Virus record (IMG/VR): IMGVR_UViG_3300045996_002966
Coordinates: 1-64,000 of that record
DNA length: 64,000 nucleotides
Origin: a virus
Strand: one strand, 5' to 3'
Part shown: piece by piece, positions 1-11,269 of the stretch
Position numbering within the stretch: position 1 is the first letter of the stretch
Layout of the letters: each line of letters opens with the position of its first letter
The notes under the pieces: generated by a model
Databases searched by the model: none
What the model was told of the DNA's origin: nothing
What the model saw: only the letters and a program-made list of their open reading frames with translations
Made by a program: the position numbers and the translations under genes

Positions 1-11
1 AGGGGTGGGGT

Positions 12-179
12 ATGGACACTGACCTAGATCGTAGTGACGCGGCCGACGCGCGCCGCTTCCGTTGGTTGTTGAACGGCAACGGGTACTTCCTCGAGGAGGC
101 GATGCTCTGCGGTCATGAACAGTTTGACGAAAGCGACGAAGCCCGGCGCGCGATCGACAAGGCGATGAAGGATGACTAA
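12..179 (+). CDS. Small hypothetical protein (55 aa) upstream of helicase
   Basis: The reading frame runs from ATG at 12 to TAA at 177-179 and overlaps the helicase start at 172, so the two are probably translationally coupled. The product is small, acidic and without membrane segments (MDTDLDRSDAADARRFRWLL...). I recognise no family. The window edge leaves only 11 bases upstream, but they include the purine-rich AGGGGTGGGG, a plausible ribosome binding site. Function unknown. Confidence 0.6.
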   Translation: MDTDLDRSDAADARRFRWLLNGNGYFLEEAMLCGHEQFDESDEARRAIDKAMKDD

Positions 180-1662
180 CGACCTCTACGCCATTCAGCC
201 GCAGAAGTGGGTGCCGCACGCCTATCAGAAGAAGGCCCTCAAGTTCCTGATTGAGCACGCGGCCGCCGGCCTACTGCTCGACCCTGGGCTAGGCAAAACC
301 TCGATCACCTACGGTGCAATTCGCTTCCTGAAGAAGCGCAGTCTCATCGAGAAGGTGCTCATCATCGCACCGCTGCGCGTCTGCAGCCTCGTGTGGCCGG
401 CGGAGCGCGAGAAGTGGATCGACTTTCACGACCTGCGCGTGGTGGTGCTCCACGGGCCGAAGAAGGATCAGCTGCTGCGCGAGGACGCGGACATCTATAT
501 CATCAATCCCGAGGGTCTGGATTGGCTTCTACAGACCGAGAAGGTGAAGCTACCCTCCGGCAAGACACGGGTCACCGTGAACCTGCGCCGCTTCAAGGCC
601 CTAGGCTTCGATGCCCTGGTCGTCGACGAGCTATCGAAGTTCAAGCACACGAACACGAACCGCTACAAGGCTCTCAAGCAGGTGGTGCCGACCTTCGCCC
701 ACCGCTGGGGCTTGACCGGCAGCCCGGCCTCGAATGGGCTCCTAGATCTATTCGGCCAATGCTACATCCTCGACGAGGGCCGCACCCTGGGCCCTTACAT
801 CACGAAGTACCGTCAGACCTACTTTAACCCCGACTGGAGCGGGTTCGGCTGGACGTTGAAGGAGGGCGCCGACCAAGCGATCTATGAGCGCATCGCGCCT
901 CTCATGCTGCGCATGGCGGGCGAGGACTACCTCGAGCTGCCGCAGTTGGTCGAGCACCGCATTGAGGTCCAGCTCCCGCCCGAGGCGATGGTAGTCTACG
1001 ATCAGCTGGAGAACGACCTCATCGCGCGAATCAACAAGGACGCGGTCGTGGTTGCGGCGAACGCCGGTGTGGCGACGGGTAAGTGCCGCCAGGTTGCCAA
1101 CGGCGGTATCTACCTCGAGCCCGCCCTTGAGCCGGTTCTCGTCAAGGCCAAGAAGAAGCGCGAATGGGCGACGATTCACACGGAGAAGATTGAGGCTCTA
1201 GCCGACCTCGTGGAGGAGCTGCAGGGCGAACCACTTCTGGTAGCCTACGACTTCGAACACGACCTCGACCGCATCCGTGATCGGTTCGGGAAGGACGTGC
1301 CGTTCATCGGCGGCGGGGTATCGCTGAAGCGAAGCAAGGAGCTGGAGCGCCTATGGAACAACGGGAAGCTGCCGGTGCTATTTGCCCACCCGCAGGCGGT
1401 AGCTCACGGGCTTAACCTGCAGGAGCGAGGCCATCACGTCTGCTGGCATAGCCTGCCCTGGGATTTTGAGCTGTTCGATCAGTTCAACCGTCGGGTGCTG
1501 AGGCAGGGTAACCCGAGCGCGAAGGTCTTTGTGCACTTCCTGATCGCGAAGGGTACCATCGATGAGACGATCTACTACGTGCTAAAGGCGAAGGACAAGG
1601 GGCAGCAGGCCCTCTTCACCGCGCTGAAGGATCTAGCGAAGCGCAGGAGGAAGGCGGCATGA
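172..1662 (+). CDS. SNF2/DEAD-type superfamily 2 helicase
   Basis: This 496-residue protein is an ATP-dependent DNA translocase/helicase of superfamily 2. Visible motifs are Walker A DPGLGKT (residues 37-43), a DExx box VVDELSK (about 150-156), motif III LTGSPASNG (181-189), and C-terminal motifs V/VI around HGLNLQ and FDQFNRRVLRQG (about residues 415-452). The DEL(S)K variant of the DExx box is usual for phage SNF2-like helicases, which act in replication, recombination or fork remodelling. It overlaps its neighbours on both sides (8 and 4 bases), so it is part of a translationally coupled group. Length and motif order are complete. Its DNA substrate cannot be judged from sequence. Confidence 0.93.
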   Translation: MTNDLYAIQPQKWVPHAYQKKALKFLIEHAAAGLLLDPGLGKTSITYGAIRFLKKRSLIEKVLIIAPLRVCSLVWPAEREKWIDFHDLRVVVLHGPKKDQLLREDADIYIINPEGLDWLLQTEKVKLPSGKTRVTVNLRRFKALGFDALVVDELSKFKHTNTNRYKALKQVVPTFAHRWGLTGSPASNGLLDLFGQCYILDEGRTLGPYITKYRQTYFNPDWSGFGWTLKEGADQAIYERIAPLMLRMAGEDYLELPQLVEHRIEVQLPPEAMVVYDQLENDLIARINKDAVVVAANAGVATGKCRQVANGGIYLEPALEPVLVKAKKKREWATIHTEKIEALADLVEELQGEPLLVAYDFEHDLDRIRDRFGKDVPFIGGGVSLKRSKELERLWNNGKLPVLFAHPQAVAHGLNLQERGHHVCWHSLPWDFELFDQFNRRVLRQGNPSAKVFVHFLIAKGTIDETIYYVLKAKDKGQQALFTALKDLAKRRRKAA

Positions 1663-5223: not shown

Positions 5224-6570
5224 ATGGCTCGACAACTCACCGCCCTAGGAGGCGCGATCTTCGCTGGCCTGTTCACGGTCGGGATCAAGGAAGCTGGCTA
5301 TAGGGTGCTCGGGCACCTGGAGTTCGGCGACTACGGCGTCGCAACGGCGCGCAAGAACTTCCCCGACCTTGACATCCGCGTAGGTACGCACAACTGGAAT
5401 CCCGAACGGTTCACCGGCAAGGTGGATTTCATGTACACCAACCCGCCGTGCGCTGCCTGGTCGACCCTGGGCCACCCCACGCGGAAGTGGCATGAGCAGA
5501 CCGAGCGACTCTCCTGCGTGCAAGACCTGGTGCAGGCGGGTCTCATCGTGCAGCCGAAGGCTTGGTGCTGGGAGAGCGTGACGGGGGCGTGGGGGAAGGG
5601 TCGCGAATTCGTGCTCGAGCAGGCCCGGATCTGGAATCAGCACGGGTACCACGTGACGGTGCTGCTCCAAAACAACATGTACCTCGGCTGCCCGCAGTTC
5701 CGCAAGCGAATGTTCCTCATCGCTCACAAGCACCCGATTGTCTGGATGCCGTTCGTAGAATCACGGACTACGGGGCAAATCCTGAAGCAGATGCCGAAGC
5801 GAGGCCTGCCGAAGCCCCCGTTGGTACCGCCACCGCTCTCGCCGAGGTTCCTGGAGCTATGGCACCGCTCGGATGGCCACGGGCGCCTGCGGCGCGCCTA
5901 TGAGCAGATGAGCGAGGAGGAGCTAGCGAAGCACCCCGGCATCATCCCGTTCGCCGTCGTGCGGCGGCTCAACCCAGACAAGCCCCCACCGGTGTTCCTG
6001 CAGAGCGCGATGCGGCTCCACCCGACGGAGCCCCGTGAGTTCACCTACCACGAGTGGCTCGAGTTCACGGGGCTGCCGCACAACTGGCAGACGGCCTGCA
6101 CCAGCTTCAACTCCTTCTCCCTGGAGCTATCCCGCGCCGTCATGCCGCCGGTCGGCCGCTGGCTCGGGGAGTCGATCGCCGCCGGTCTCAAGAAGAAGCC
6201 CCTCGACATCAACAAAGGCGTGACCACCAGGGTGGTGAATTTCATGTTCGGGCCGGAGCGGGCCAGCGAGGAGGAGCTATGGCGCACGACGGAGTTCGCC
6301 GACCTCTCGACTCCTGTTTGGAGCCCCGCGACGCCCCCGCCGGAAGCGCCCAAGCGGGTGGCAAGGATAGGAGCCCCGCCCCGCGCGCCAAGCCCAGGGC
6401 GCCCCGGTATCGGGGCTCGAATCAGGGATCTGCTGCAAGACCCGCGAGGCTTTATCACCGAGCAGATTCTCACAACGATCCGGCAGGAGTTTCCCCAGTC
6501 CAAGGCCACCGCGGCCGACGTGTCCTGGAACCGCGGCAAACTGAAGAAGGAGCAGCAACGTGCAGCCTGA
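5224..6570 (+). CDS. DNA cytosine-C5 methyltransferase with C-terminal WYR-like domain
   Basis: A 448-residue Dcm/C5-MTase family protein. Motif I is GGAIFAGLFTVGIKEAG (about 9-25), the catalytic Pro-Cys loop is NPPCAAWSTLG (Cys76), the ENV-equivalent is CWESVTG (about 115-121), and motif VIII is CPQFRKRMFLIAH. The enzyme would transfer methyl from SAM to C5 of cytosine in a short target. The target-recognition region looks short. Beyond the MTase fold, the last 55 residues (IGARIRDLLQDP...DVSWNRGKLKKEQQ) match the WYR domain of the small proteins encoded at 1951-4344, with WYR changed to WNR. Overlap with the next gene is 11 bases. It could protect phage DNA from host restriction. Confidence 0.85.
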   Translation: MARQLTALGGAIFAGLFTVGIKEAGYRVLGHLEFGDYGVATARKNFPDLDIRVGTHNWNPERFTGKVDFMYTNPPCAAWSTLGHPTRKWHEQTERLSCVQDLVQAGLIVQPKAWCWESVTGAWGKGREFVLEQARIWNQHGYHVTVLLQNNMYLGCPQFRKRMFLIAHKHPIVWMPFVESRTTGQILKQMPKRGLPKPPLVPPPLSPRFLELWHRSDGHGRLRRAYEQMSEEELAKHPGIIPFAVVRRLNPDKPPPVFLQSAMRLHPTEPREFTYHEWLEFTGLPHNWQTACTSFNSFSLELSRAVMPPVGRWLGESIAAGLKKKPLDINKGVTTRVVNFMFGPERASEEELWRTTEFADLSTPVWSPATPPPEAPKRVARIGAPPRAPSPGRPGIGARIRDLLQDPRGFITEQILTTIRQEFPQSKATAADVSWNRGKLKKEQQRAA

Positions 6571-7084
6571 AGAGTTGAAAGAAAACCTCTCGATTCTAAT
6601 CGACTTCATCCACACCGCGCCGGGACGTCTACCCTTCCGGGTCCAGACGGCCATTGCGTTGCTAGAGCAGGCCATGCCACCGACGATCGAGGAACCGCCC
6701 GACCTCATCGGCGACGTGCGGGCCTTCGGTGAGAAGTTCGGCCTGCCGCTCTCCGACACGCCGCACCTGCTCAAGCCCGAAGATTGGGCTTACCGCGTTC
6801 ATTTCCTCCACGAGGAGCTGATGGAAACGGAGGAGGCCTATGATGTAGACGACCTGGTGGGCGTGGCCGACGGTCTCATCGACCTCATCTACGTGGCCAT
6901 TGGCACGCTCCAGTTGATGGGCGTCCCGGTCGCCGAGGGTTGGCGCGAGGTGCAGCGAGCTAACATGACCAAGGAGCGGGTGGCCAAGGCCGAGGATTCC
7001 AAGCGCGGTCACGCCTGGGATATCAAGAAGCCCGAGGGGTGGGAGCCGCCCAACTGGGAGCGCGTGCTCGGGAGACCTACATGA
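6560..7084 (+). CDS. MazG-like nucleotide pyrophosphohydrolase
   Basis: It starts at GTG 6560, behind GAAGGAG, inside the end of the methyltransferase gene. The 174-residue product has the all-alpha NTP-PPase signature EELMETEEAYDVDDLVGVAD followed by GLIDLIYVAIGTLQLMGV (about residues 91-128), with the E..E...D metal ligands in place. The family hydrolyses (d)NTPs to monophosphates and PPi; T4 gp56 dCTPase/dUTPase belongs to the same broad fold. Placed directly before a dNMP kinase, TS homologue and dCMP deaminase, a dCTPase or dUTPase role is the natural inference. Exact substrate not provable from sequence. Confidence 0.8.
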   Translation: MQPEELKENLSILIDFIHTAPGRLPFRVQTAIALLEQAMPPTIEEPPDLIGDVRAFGEKFGLPLSDTPHLLKPEDWAYRVHFLHEELMETEEAYDVDDLVGVADGLIDLIYVAIGTLQLMGVPVAEGWREVQRANMTKERVAKAEDSKRGHAWDIKKPEGWEPPNWERVLGRPT

Positions 7085-8007
7085 GATCCGCTCGCCTGAC
7101 CATCTTCGAAGGGCCGGACGGCGCGGGCAAGACCACCCTGGCCCAGGCCTACGCCAAGGAGACCAACGCGCGGTATCTGCACTTCGATGCGCTGCGCGGT
7201 ATCAAGACCGGCGCCGGCCTGGCTCGGCACTACGCCGAGGCGATCATGCCCGCGGTGCTAGGCTACCAGGACATCGTCATGGATCGCTGCTGGCTCTCGG
7301 AGGAGCCCTACGCCGAGGTCTACCACCACGAGCAGGGCAGGCTCGGCCGAGCCCATACCCGAATGCTCGAGCGCCTGGCCCTGCGCTGCGGCGCGGTCGT
7401 GGTTCTTTGCGCTCCGCCCCTGGAGGTGGTACGCGAGAACTACCTGTCGCGCCAGGGTGAGGAGATGCTCGAGAGCGTGGCCCAGCTGGAGCAGGTCTAC
7501 GATCGCTACAAGCGTCACCTGCTTACGCACCTGCCCTGCGTGGCCTACGACTACACCGGGAAGACCGGCAACGCGACGGTGCCGCCCTACTACCTCGAGG
7601 AGTTCCGCGGTCAGCGCCACTCGCTGGCGGTGGGGAGCACGGCGGGTAACTGGGATGCGCGCGTAGTCCTCGTGGGGCAAGACTTCGCTCGGCACAAAGA
7701 CCTGGATTCATACTACCAGTGGCCCTTCGCGTCGTTCGCCGGCGCTGGCTGCTCGCGCTTCCTCACCGATCACCTGGAGGAGTGGGGTATTCTCGAGAGC
7801 GAATTGCTTTGGGTCAACGCCGACATGGTCCTCGAGGCGATCCCGTTCGGCGAGCGCAAGGTGATAGCTCTGGGCGAGCTGGCGTCGATGGCTCTCAACG
7901 TTCTCGACGTGAGGCATACGCTTATCTCTCACCCGCAGTATCATAAACGATTCAAGGCTGGCGAGCCTTATCTGCTCGGCCCTCAGCTCGTGGAGATGTT
8001 GAAATGA
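7081..8007 (+). CDS. dNMP (thymidylate-type) kinase fused to a uracil-DNA-glycosylase-like domain
   Basis: ATG 7081 overlaps the previous stop. Residues 1-185 form a P-loop nucleoside monophosphate kinase: Walker A EGPDGAGKTT (10-19), a DR motif (68-69, MDRCWLSEEPYAE), and a lid-like Arg-rich region. Residues 192-308 are a second domain, RVVLVGQDFARHK..WPFASFAGAGCSRFL...KVIALGELAS...ISHPQYHKRF, whose pattern (VLVGx, PF..FAGxG..L, ALGxxA, HPxYxxRF) resembles UDG superfamily family 4/5 proteins. The glycosylase match is my inference; the canonical acidic/Asn residue of motif A appears replaced (VGQDF). Single-domain dTMP kinases are about 210 residues, so the extension is real. The gene is coupled to the TS homologue by a 4-base overlap. 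Confidence 0.75.
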   Translation: MRSARLTIFEGPDGAGKTTLAQAYAKETNARYLHFDALRGIKTGAGLARHYAEAIMPAVLGYQDIVMDRCWLSEEPYAEVYHHEQGRLGRAHTRMLERLALRCGAVVVLCAPPLEVVRENYLSRQGEEMLESVAQLEQVYDRYKRHLLTHLPCVAYDYTGKTGNATVPPYYLEEFRGQRHSLAVGSTAGNWDARVVLVGQDFARHKDLDSYYQWPFASFAGAGCSRFLTDHLEEWGILESELLWVNADMVLEAIPFGERKVIALGELASMALNVLDVRHTLISHPQYHKRFKAGEPYLLGPQLVEMLK

Positions 8008-8864
8008 CACCTGACCTCACGACCGTCTGGTTGAACACGTTGCATATGGTAGTCTCCGAAGGCCACCAGGTCTCGCCGCGGGGAAAGCTGACCCTGGAGA
8101 TTCCGCAGCACACCAGCGTCGTTAACATGCGGCGCCCGGTGCTCACCGCCCCAGCTCGGAAGCTCTCCTACAAATTCATGGCGGCCGAGGCTTATTGGAT
8201 CCTCTCGGGCGATAACTCCGTGAAGGGAATCGCGCCCTACAACGCGAACATCGCCCAGTTCTCCGACGACGGGGAGACCTTCTTCGGTGCCTATGGGCCG
8301 AAGATCCTGGCTCAGCTCGACTACGTGGTAGCGAAGCTGCTCGAGGATCCGACCAGTCGTCAAGCGGGGCTGACCCTCTGGCGGGAGAACCCACCGACGA
8401 CGAAGGACGTACCCTGCACGGTCGCCATGTTCTTCGCGATTCGCGGGTCGCGGTTGAACCTCCACGTCTTCATGCGGTCGAACGACGTGTGGCTCGGCAT
8501 GCCCTACGACGTCTTCAACTTTTCCATGCTGGCCCATCTGGTTGCCGCCAGGATCAACCGCGAGCGGCAGAACGACCAGATCATGGACGGGCAAGTTCCC
8601 ACGCCAATCAGCGTCGTGCCGGGTAACCTCTACCTGACCGCGGCGAGCTGCCACCTCTACCGTGAGCACTGGGACGCCGCGGCCGACGTGTTTAGCTCGT
8701 CCCTGGGCCTGCAGCCGGCCACGCCGGAGGGACTGTTCCTGAATGAATGGCTGCTGATGGATTGGCTAAAGAAGCTACGCGACGCCGGACCGGAATCCAC
8801 GATGCGCTGGTGGACGCAACCAGCGATCGAGACCACTACCCCAACCCTGGAGGAGAAGTTATGA
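8004..8864 (+). CDS. Thymidylate synthase homologue, probable dCMP (or dUMP) hydroxymethylase
   Basis: The 286-residue protein has the TS fold motifs: the folate/nucleotide region AEAYWILSGD (61-70), the catalytic Cys138 in DVPCT, and RSNDVWLGMPYDVF (158-171). In thymidylate synthases the last motif is LGLPFNIA, with an Asn that selects dUMP. Here Asp169 replaces Asn, the substitution known from T4 gp42 dCMP hydroxymethylase and sufficient in TS mutants to accept dCMP. The Trp-rich IWDEW segment of TS is also missing (NIAQFSDDG). I therefore infer a hydroxymethylase acting on dCMP, with dUMP as the alternative. It overlaps its neighbours by 4 bases on each side. Confidence 0.8.
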   Translation: MTPDLTTVWLNTLHMVVSEGHQVSPRGKLTLEIPQHTSVVNMRRPVLTAPARKLSYKFMAAEAYWILSGDNSVKGIAPYNANIAQFSDDGETFFGAYGPKILAQLDYVVAKLLEDPTSRQAGLTLWRENPPTTKDVPCTVAMFFAIRGSRLNLHVFMRSNDVWLGMPYDVFNFSMLAHLVAARINRERQNDQIMDGQVPTPISVVPGNLYLTAASCHLYREHWDAAADVFSSSLGLQPATPEGLFLNEWLLMDWLKKLRDAGPESTMRWWTQPAIETTTPTLEEKL

Positions 8865-9424
8865 AACTCGAGGAGCACACCCTCGGTGCCGCGATGGCGG
8901 CGATCGAGACCCTGCAAGACCTCGGATTTACCTTCGACAACTCGATCAACCGGCGTTGGAGCCCGCCGAAGAACCTACCGCCTCACATGAGACCAATCCC
9001 GCTGGAGGAGCAGTTTCGCCAGGTGATGATGGCGCTGGGCTTCCCTTCGGCTCAGCACCTCTCGAGTGGCGACGTGCTGACGGTCGCGGTGGCTGGAATG
9101 AAGGTCTTCCAAGAGGCTGACCCTCGCAACCCGCGCACCGGACCATTCGCCAAGGATCTTGAGCGCCGTTCGGCGGACCAAGTAGCTTTGAACGCGGCGA
9201 CCCCGCTCAATACGCTGCCGGCCGCGGAGAAGGAAGCGCGAAAGCACGACCAGACCAAGGTCGGGCTCGAGGCGGAGAAGGAGCTGGTTCGGCAGGTGAT
9301 CCGCGAGGAGCTGAAGATTTCATTGGACCGCCGGCTTAACTACGATTCATGGGATTGGGTTGTTTCGCTTTACCTGGTAAATGACGAGGCCTTTGATTCT
9401 GACGCGGTGAGGGAAGTGCGATGA
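8861..9424 (+). CDS. Hypothetical protein in nucleotide operon (187 aa)
   Basis: ATG 8861 overlaps the previous stop and the gene's stop overlaps the deaminase start, so it is translated as part of the nucleotide operon. The product is soluble and helical. It contains a conserved-looking early segment (MKLEEHTLGAAMAAIETLQD) and a charged C-terminal helix (EAEKELVRQVIREEL). I recognise no family. Its position between a hydroxymethylase-like enzyme and dCMP deaminase suggests a partner or accessory role, but nothing in the sequence proves it. Confidence 0.6.
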   Translation: MKLEEHTLGAAMAAIETLQDLGFTFDNSINRRWSPPKNLPPHMRPIPLEEQFRQVMMALGFPSAQHLSSGDVLTVAVAGMKVFQEADPRNPRTGPFAKDLERRSADQVALNAATPLNTLPAAEKEARKHDQTKVGLEAEKELVRQVIREELKISLDRRLNYDSWDWVVSLYLVNDEAFDSDAVREVR

Positions 9425-9951
9425 CCCGCCCGACCAAAGACCTCTGGGCGATCAACCTCGCGACGATGACCGCCGAGCGAAGCACCTGCGCGCGGCGCCG
9501 CGTGGGCTGCGTGCTGACCAACGTCCGCGGTCACGTGCTCGCTACGGGGTACAACGGGGTGGCGGCGGGGCTACCTCACTGCAACCAGGAAACGGGCAAG
9601 GAGATGAAGCTCCGATACGTGGACGATGCCTCCCATGAGTCGGCGACTTTCTTGGCGCCGGTCTACGCTCACGCCTGCTCCGGCGCGGCCTCGCCGAGCG
9701 GTACGAACCTGGATGCCTGCGAGGCGATCCACGCCGAGCAGAACGCGCTGCTGCAGTGCCACGACGTCTTCGACATCCATACCTGCTACGTGACCGCCAG
9801 CCCCTGCGTGACCTGCACCAAGCTCCTGCTCAACACCGGCTGCCAGCGGATTGTGTTCGTCGAAGAGTACCCGCAGCCCGAGGCCGGCCGGCTCTGGAAG
9901 AAGTCGCACCGCCAATGGCTTCACGTCAGCGAAGTAGGCCACAGTGAGTAG
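9421..9951 (+). CDS. Deoxycytidylate (dCMP) deaminase
   Basis: A 176-residue zinc-dependent cytidine/deoxycytidylate deaminase. The HAE motif (104-106, EAIHAEQNALLQ) supplies a zinc ligand and the proton-shuttling Glu. The PCVTC motif (128-132) supplies the other two zinc ligands. An insertion of about 35 residues before HAE is usual for phage and eukaryotic dCMP deaminases. The enzyme converts dCMP to dUMP, feeding dTTP synthesis and lowering dCMP. It is the last gene of the coupled run that starts at 4434, and promoter P3 begins one base after it. Confidence 0.92.
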   Translation: MTRPTKDLWAINLATMTAERSTCARRRVGCVLTNVRGHVLATGYNGVAAGLPHCNQETGKEMKLRYVDDASHESATFLAPVYAHACSGAASPSGTNLDACEAIHAEQNALLQCHDVFDIHTCYVTASPCVTCTKLLLNTGCQRIVFVEEYPQPEAGRLWKKSHRQWLHVSEVGHSE

Positions 9952-10448: not shown

Positions 10449-10986
10449 AGTACAAGTAACGCTACCCAGCGAGCGGTGGCAGGTGCTGCTGCGTCGCGTT
10501 GACGGCGATACCTTCGTCGAGGACGTGCGCGCCGCGATCCTGAAGGCGGTGGAGGAAGCCGAGCGCGAGGCAGCGGTAGTCGCCGAAGCCCTTCGCCAAA
10601 GCGAGGAGCGAAGCGAGCGGTACAAGCGTTACCGTGAATACCGCCACGAGCGGCTGCTGCAGAGCCCGGTCGTCAACGGGTTCCGCGCGACGGTTACGGC
10701 TCCTTCCGAGTTGGAGGCTCGCCGGGTTGTCACCCTCTACCACGATCAGCAAGACCTCAGCCGCCCGGCCTATTACGTCTACCTCTCAGAGAAGCAAGGG
10801 TACACCCGCATCGAGCAGGTGGTGAAGCACCGGCGTGGCTTTAGCCGGCGAGAAGTTTCCGGCTGGACCGGGAACGCAGCCACAAGCGCGCGGTTTAATC
10901 GGCTGGTGGCGACGGCGACGCGGCTGGCAGAACTTAGCACCCCCGTCCTACCTCTTGAGGAATGGCACCATGAAGATCAGAGTTGA
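10441..10986 (+). CDS. Hypothetical protein with coiled-coil region (181 aa)
   Basis: AAGGAGG (10428-10434) favours the ATG at 10441 over the adjacent one at 10438. The product has an N-terminal strand (MIEVQVTLPSERWQVLL), a charged helix with coiled-coil character (KAVEEAEREAAVVAEALRQ), and a globular C-terminal half. It overlaps the previous and following genes. Unknown function. Confidence 0.65.
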   Translation: MIEVQVTLPSERWQVLLRRVDGDTFVEDVRAAILKAVEEAEREAAVVAEALRQSEERSERYKRYREYRHERLLQSPVVNGFRATVTAPSELEARRVVTLYHDQQDLSRPAYYVYLSEKQGYTRIEQVVKHRRGFSRREVSGWTGNAATSARFNRLVATATRLAELSTPVLPLEEWHHEDQS

Positions 10987-11269
10987 TAATGAAAAGCTCG
11001 TCGCTCATCGCGCGAAAGAAGAACGCCGGGCGCGGTGCCTAGCGCTGCAAAGTCAGCTGTCCGAGCTGGTAGGCAGCGTGCTCTACAAGGAGAACGGTGA
11101 GCGAACCGACGTGCCCCTCGATCTTATCACGGTAGAGCTGCACGTTAGCGAGGTAGCTCTGCTACGGGAGTTCGATGTGATCACCTACGGCGATAGCAAG
11201 ATCAAGATTTACGGCGACAGCCCGATATTGGTGACCTTTACCACCGTACGCGACGACGATGGCAAGTAA
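10970..11269 (+). CDS. Hypothetical protein (99 aa)
   Basis: ATG 10970 follows the SD-like TTGAGGAATGG and lies inside the end of the previous gene. The product starts MKIRVDNEKLVAHRAKEERR, with a helical N-terminus and a beta-rich C-terminus (KIKIYGDSPILVTFTTV). No family recognised. Confidence 0.6.
   Translation: MKIRVDNEKLVAHRAKEERRARCLALQSQLSELVGSVLYKENGERTDVPLDLITVELHVSEVALLREFDVITYGDSKIKIYGDSPILVTFTTVRDDDGK

Follow-up and report, generated by a model that had tools for sequence, protein, structure and literature searches.

A viral operon predicted to make 5-hydroxymethylcytosine DNA, with a class I methyltransferase as candidate capping enzyme

The hydroxymethylcytosine pathway of phage T4 comprises gp42, gp56, gp1, cd and a beta-glucosyltransferase, the last of which acts on 5-hydroxymethylcytosine (5hmC) in DNA. 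Another module, described with MetaGPA on cytosine-modified viral contigs, combines a thymidylate synthase (TS) homologue bearing Asp177 with co-occurring PF01503, PF00383 and PF14437 domains and a 5hmC carbamoyltransferase (PMC8670742). Similar modules can be found in the Xp12/AXL1 group of 5-methylcytosine (5mC) phages, which have a PRA-PH protein, a TS with Asp177 and a deaminase. An operon related to these systems is present in the IMG/VR virus record IMGVR_UViG_3300045996_002966, of whose 71,959 bases the window covers 64,000. With a probability of about 0.8, this operon makes 5-hydroxymethyl-dCMP (5hm-dCMP), which is incorporated into the phage DNA in place of cytosine. The kind of system would be a known one, namely viral hydroxymethylcytosine synthesis by a MetaGPA-type module; its candidate capping branch would be new.

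The genes lie on the + strand in the order class I methyltransferase (MTase), C5 MTase, nucleoside triphosphate pyrophosphatase (NTP-PPase), kinase, TS homologue, an open reading frame (ORF) and dCMP deaminase (Table 1). The cassette resembles the MetaGPA TS/PRA-PH/dCMP-deaminase module more than it does T4, and its TS with Asp177 keeps the same company of domains; it differs in that a class I MTase takes the place of the carbamoyltransferase (PMC8670742). Carbamoylation was rejected, as no PF02543 gene was found in the five records examined or in the 40 viral loci fetched with the TS homologue (the TS-anchored set). Regarding T4, the same reaction steps are covered, but the pyrophosphatase and the kinase come from other families, no glucosyltransferase is present and the genes form a contiguous operon. 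The likeness to T4 proposed in the sequence-only reading therefore stands for the reaction steps and fails for the orthology of two genes: gp56 is a PF08761 protein whereas the NTP-PPase belongs to PF01503, and gp1 matches PF21448 DNMK at 3e-107 whereas the window kinase matches only thymidylate kinase (TMK)/AAA families, although both window enzymes can do the job of the T4 dCTPase and kinase to which they were likened. The closest cultured relatives, Stenotrophomonas phage AXL3 and Pseudoxanthomonas phage PW916 (Axeltriavirus group), have the same cassette order with 38-63% protein identity; AXL3, whose DNA is restriction-resistant, and PW916 differ from the window in having ThyX and in lacking a C5 MTase.

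The key residues of the TS homologue are E62, D135, C138, T139 and D169, the last of which occupies the position of E. coli N177, the dCMP-specifying site, in agreement with the dCMP-specific Asp that had been read from the sequence. The TS alignment comprised the window and 70 further rows (71 rows from 62 distinct contigs or records, 9 of them repeating a contig), plus T4 gp42, SPO1 gp29 and AXL1; the AXL1 row was misaligned by MAFFT at the Tyr/Ser site, and its Trp80 and -3 residue were read by eye. All 71 rows have Asp three residues before the catalytic Cys (position -3; D135-V-P-C138 in the window), Thr at the E. coli H147 site and Asp at the N177 site, as does T4 gp42. Asp177 is a mark of cytosine-modified viral contigs, and positions 177 and 147 are those which best separate such contigs from unmodified ones (PMC8670742). 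Mutation of T4 dCH shows that hydroxymethylation depends on the Asp at -3, which activates water, and a hydroxymethylase signature has been proposed that combines this residue (Asp or Glu being allowed) with a Ser or Thr at the second position before the catalytic Tyr (PMC6400193). The SPO1 dUMP hydroxymethylase has Asp at -3 but Asn at 177. In the Protein Data Bank (PDB), the TS homologue matches MilA CMP hydroxymethylases best, and all true TS rank below them. MilA likewise has Asp at -3 and at 177, but acts on CMP in the synthesis of the antibiotic mildiomycin and has Thr at the site of T4 Ser94.

A second line of evidence comes from relatives in which another gene accompanies the TS homologue. 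Five of the 40 TS-anchored loci, all without a class I MTase, have a gene of 363-369 amino acids (aa) between TS and deaminase, which falls in the family of the T4 beta-glucosyltransferase (PF09198; three of the genes were scanned, with E values of 4e-16 to 5e-24); the PF09198 profile matched in 5/46 records searched, in the TS operon. The TS proteins of these cassettes are 41-43% identical to that of the window and have the same key residues. Since the T4 beta-glucosyltransferase acts on 5hmC, its occurrence in related cassettes argues that this TS family most likely makes 5hm-dCMP. The glucosyltransferase genes of three such small phage contigs, far from T4-like phages, lie in the TS operon at 8774-9883 (L037), 8780-9874 (L039) and 8756-9847 (L044). 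A search for further glucosyltransferase loci returned the same five contigs and two distant ones. In the window phage itself glucosylation was rejected: neither PF09198 nor a carbamoyltransferase was found across the 71,959-base record, which extends the absence of a glucosyltransferase already remarked from the sequence. Among the record's 111 predicted proteins, a Pfam scan of those of at least 60 aa outside the cassette (51 early and 42 late) returned only replication, virion and unnamed families. A scan of 34 AXL3 proteins, encoded outside both the cassette and most of the virion genes, detected no glycosyltransferase and gave one weak acyltransferase match (0.008).

The restriction behaviour of AXL3 provides a third line. 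Its proteins, encoded in the same order, share with those of the window 60% (MTase), 42% (NTP-PPase), 44% (kinase), 57% (TS) and 63% (deaminase) identity. The 34.6 kb of AXL3 examined contain 12 KpnI sites and 9 Eam1105I sites, Eam1105I and AhdI being isoschizomers that recognise the same sequence. Of 37 restriction enzymes, 35 fail on AXL3 DNA, KpnI and Eam1105I included, and cutting is confined to TasI and Tru1I, whose sites consist of A/T only (PMC7504290). In Xp12 DNA, where 5mC is at 100%, KpnI and AhdI cut completely (PMC7653180), and AXL1 DNA is partly cut by KpnI and Eam1105I (PMC9206674). DNA with 5hmC is a substrate of AbaSI, MspJI and McrBC (PMC7653180). The failure of KpnI and Eam1105I on AXL3, set against the cutting of Xp12 DNA, argues against plain 5mC in AXL3. 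Together, the TS residues, the glucosyltransferase-bearing relatives and these restriction data support the modified cytosine that the sequence-only reading had proposed, most likely as hydroxymethylcytosine.

In the proposed pathway, the pyrophosphatase would remove dCTP by converting it to dCMP, as its family suggests, and the TS homologue would convert dCMP and methylenetetrahydrofolate to 5hm-dCMP, a step backed by residues and relatives. The TMK-like kinase, followed by the host nucleoside diphosphate kinase, would then yield 5hm-dCTP, which the phage polymerase would incorporate in place of dCTP, and the deaminase, from what is known of its family, would convert part of the dCMP to dUMP for thymidylate. 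The class I MTase may then add a cap to the hydroxymethylated base where other phages use a glucosyltransferase, O-methylation being the simplest form of it. The outcome would be restriction-resistant DNA without plain cytosine.

This role for the class I MTase is suggested first by its distribution. The gene can be found in 33 of the 40 TS-anchored loci, the other seven being the five glucosyltransferase cassettes, a locus cut off upstream (L021) and one with a split MTase (L034); in the contig of the latter (G026, 10497-11236) the MTase occupies two open frames, because the gene is broken or the sequence contains an error. The reverse search, anchored on the MTase, returned 28 loci (26 viral, 2 genome); a TS homologue is present in all but two of them, and those two end at a contig edge. 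Among 50,697 phage records only five carry the MTase, namely AXL3 (two records), PW916, ctUtU524 and ct3Et533, the same five that rank highest in the TS search. Profile searches gave no match in T4, SPO1, AXL1 or the Pelagibacter phage HTVC200P, nor in any of the five glucosyltransferase records. Another test, on six records, also gave none, a weak negative as this test had no positive control; the same profile matched in 11 of 21 records elsewhere. By this co-occurrence, the class I MTase is a conserved core partner of the TS homologue. Two MTases had been noticed upstream in the sequence-only reading: the class I enzyme proved to be this conserved partner, and the C5 enzyme, present in 2/40 TS-anchored loci and in 1 further contig among the 28 MTase-anchored loci, is on such counts an accessory gene.

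The mutual exclusion of the MTase and glucosyltransferase genes points to the MTase replacing the sugar-adding cap enzyme of related phages, with a new modified DNA base as the result; the MTase would be an evolutionary substitute for beta-glucosyltransferase. That it acts on the base beyond 5hmC has about even odds. It may tentatively be proposed, with a probability somewhat below even, that it O-methylates 5hmC to give 5-methoxymethylcytosine DNA, with the kinase fused to a uracil-DNA glycosylase (UDG)-like domain acting as a filter of precursor quality. The best structural match of the MTase is CmoM (Z 19.5 over 211 residues), with CcbJ and TleD tied and several unrelated enzymes within 1 Z (Foldseek, VIA-align). 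CmoM acts on tRNA, where it methylates the side chain at C5 of a uridine (PMC10516636). Elaborations of hydroxymethyl pyrimidines listed in PMC12783734 are glycosylation, amination and carbamoylation, methylation not being among them, and no report of methoxymethylcytosine or O-methylated hydroxymethylcytosine in phage DNA was found in the open-licence literature searched.

Several observations weigh against 5hmC synthesis followed by a methyl cap. The site of T4 Ser94 is Gly in 71/71 rows, leaving the Ser/Thr half of the proposed signature unmatched: the residues up to the catalytic Tyr are G-A-Y in the window and in all relatives but one, which has G-S-Y. Ser is not universal at this site, however, because the SPO1 dUMP hydroxymethylase has Ala there; Gly is also found in the glucosyltransferase-bearing relatives. 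No nucleoside analysis was found, when looked for, for any member of the cassette family. Within the TS-anchored set, the kinase was not found in 9/40 loci, the deaminase in 6/40 and the pyrophosphatase in 4/40, one of these four being truncated. HTVC200P (L079), whose TS is 45% identical to that of the window, has neither MTase nor beta-glucosyltransferase by profile search. In the TS tree, where the T4, SPO1 and AXL1 branches are very long and their positions carry no meaning, the five glucosyltransferase rows form one clade (100/100), nested in an 18-row clade (100/98) that includes 11 MTase rows. The exchange of MTase and glucosyltransferase thus amounts to one or few events, and the count of 5 versus 33 overstates independence. 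Finally, the AlphaFold model of the MTase (predicted local distance difference test, pLDDT, 90) shows a generic class I fold, which does not name a substrate.

The alternative that survives best differs from the preferred reading only in the cap: the final base would be unsubstituted 5hmC, and the class I MTase would be used otherwise in infection. The lack of any glycosyltransferase or carbamoyltransferase in the record and the unproven substrate of a generic fold make this a possibility to be taken seriously, though one somewhat short of favoured; against it, searches starting from either gene link the MTase to the hydroxymethylase, and no MTase occurs in the cassettes that have a glucosyltransferase.

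An Xp12-type dCMP methylase, making 5-methyl-dCMP and so placing 5mC throughout the DNA, is improbable. An Asp at N177 does convert TS to the formation of 5-methyl-dCMP (PMC8670742), and the module of the Xp12 group is similar in its PRA-PH, TS and deaminase. The AXL1 enzyme, however, has Asn at -3 together with Asp at 177 and retains Trp80, and AXL1 encodes a dihydrofolate reductase (DHFR) and no homologue of the class I MTase. In the window and its relatives no Trp occurs at the Trp80 site, which is Ala in the window, and no DHFR was found in 5/5 records examined; it is on the Ala, the Asp at -3 and the missing DHFR that this reading was rejected, and the glucosyltransferase of related cassettes and the resistance of AXL3 DNA to KpnI and Eam1105I also argue against it.

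That the C5 MTase sets the final base, for instance as a CmoX-type carboxymethyltransferase, is very improbable. The gene sits in the operon, and a C5-MTase homologue that works with carboxy-SAM is known in CmoX (PMC12783734); against this, the C5 position is already substituted in hydroxymethylcytosine, and CmoA is not among the family matches of the record, no direct CmoA search having been made. As a core gene it was rejected, since only 3/57 distinct viral contigs besides the window carry one.

Least probable of all is an ordinary thymidylate pathway (dCMP to dUMP, dTMP and dTDP), which is stated in the AXL3 paper (PMC7504290), and likewise in that on PW916, and which the adjoining deaminase, TS fold and TMK-like kinase would fit, but which was rejected given Asp177 and Thr147 in all rows, a resistance of AXL3 DNA limited to sites containing G/C (PMC7504290), and a separate ThyX gene in AXL3 and PW916 (none was found in the window's record) that makes the TS homologue not needed for dTMP in these two phages and the thymidylate reading of the cassette unnecessary.

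Regarding the kinase, its AlphaFold model (pLDDT 91) matches YorR (3kb2, Z 14.0) and TMKs (Z about 13) over residues 1-193 only. The C-terminal part of about 120 aa can be found in 4/50,697 phage records, all four with the cassette, and its invariant residues are G14, G24, P40, S50, E64, W69, N71, G90, A93, H109-P110 and R115-F116 (numbering of alignment A7). The PF03167 UDG profile gave no match in the window kinase itself; in the two relatives where the match was located it lies at 216-322, both times below the curated cut-off. A PDB profile search with this domain gave weak matches (E 0.4-0.7), nearly all to type-4 UDG or UDGX. A UDG-like fold is likely on this evidence; one guess at the role of the domain is quality control against deaminated hm-dUMP. 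Fusion of a DNA-glycosylase fold to a deoxynucleoside monophosphate (dNMP) kinase was seen in cassette phages only. As a parallel, in AXL1 (L049, 13327-13809) a gene with the ENDO3c DNA glycosylase fold adjoins the PRA-PH and TS genes.

The four enzymes described in the sequence-only reading as one overlapping + strand operon are all present there by Pfam and phrog matches, the dCMP deaminase included; a fifth gene, the ORF between TS and deaminase, had been left out. This ORF has no Pfam match and no homologue among the fetched TS-anchored and MTase-anchored loci. From the C5 MTase onward the genes overlap by 11, 4, 4, 4 and 4 bases, and a gap of 1 base separates the two MTases. For the kinase, the ATG at 7081 is a more likely start than that at 7039. 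The ends of the record (window 1-978 and record 70982-71959) match at 932/978 positions, which suggests that the genome is circularly permuted, measures about 71 kb and was assembled from a mixed population.

Table 1. Genes and domains of the cassette in the window
Feature	Coordinates	Strand	Evidence
Class I S-adenosylmethionine (SAM) methyltransferase, 262 aa	4434..5222	+	PF13489 1e-11; AlphaFold pLDDT 90
C5-type DNA methyltransferase	5224..6570	+	PF00145 4e-16
PRA-PH/MazG-type NTP pyrophosphatase, proposed dCTPase	6560..7084	+	PF01503 6e-14; phrog_671 4e-26
TMK-like dNMP kinase with C-terminal UDG-superfamily-like domain, 308 aa	7081..8007	+	phrog_761 thymidylate kinase 2e-18
UDG-like C-terminal domain of the kinase	7636..8004	+	PF03167 in 3/31 relatives, best 2.1e-5
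TS homologue, predicted dCMP hydroxymethylase, 286 aa	8004..8864	+	PF00303 3.5e-22; phrog_5131 3.6e-41
ORF without family match, 187 aa, translationally coupled	8861..9424	+	4-base overlaps on both sides
dCMP deaminase	9421..9951	+	PF00383 3e-17; phrog_174 1e-36

With regard to its meaning, the analysis corrects the published plain-thymidylate reading of the AXL3 operon. It also predicts concretely that a phage family with members in culture carries an unknown DNA base; two of these members, AXL3 and PW916, are available as isolates. Methylated 5hmC, if true, would add to glycosylation, amination and carbamoylation as a way of capping this base. Should the cap be confirmed, a methyl ether would join the means by which phages hide hydroxymethylcytosine from type IV restriction and from hydroxymethylcytosine glycosylase defences.

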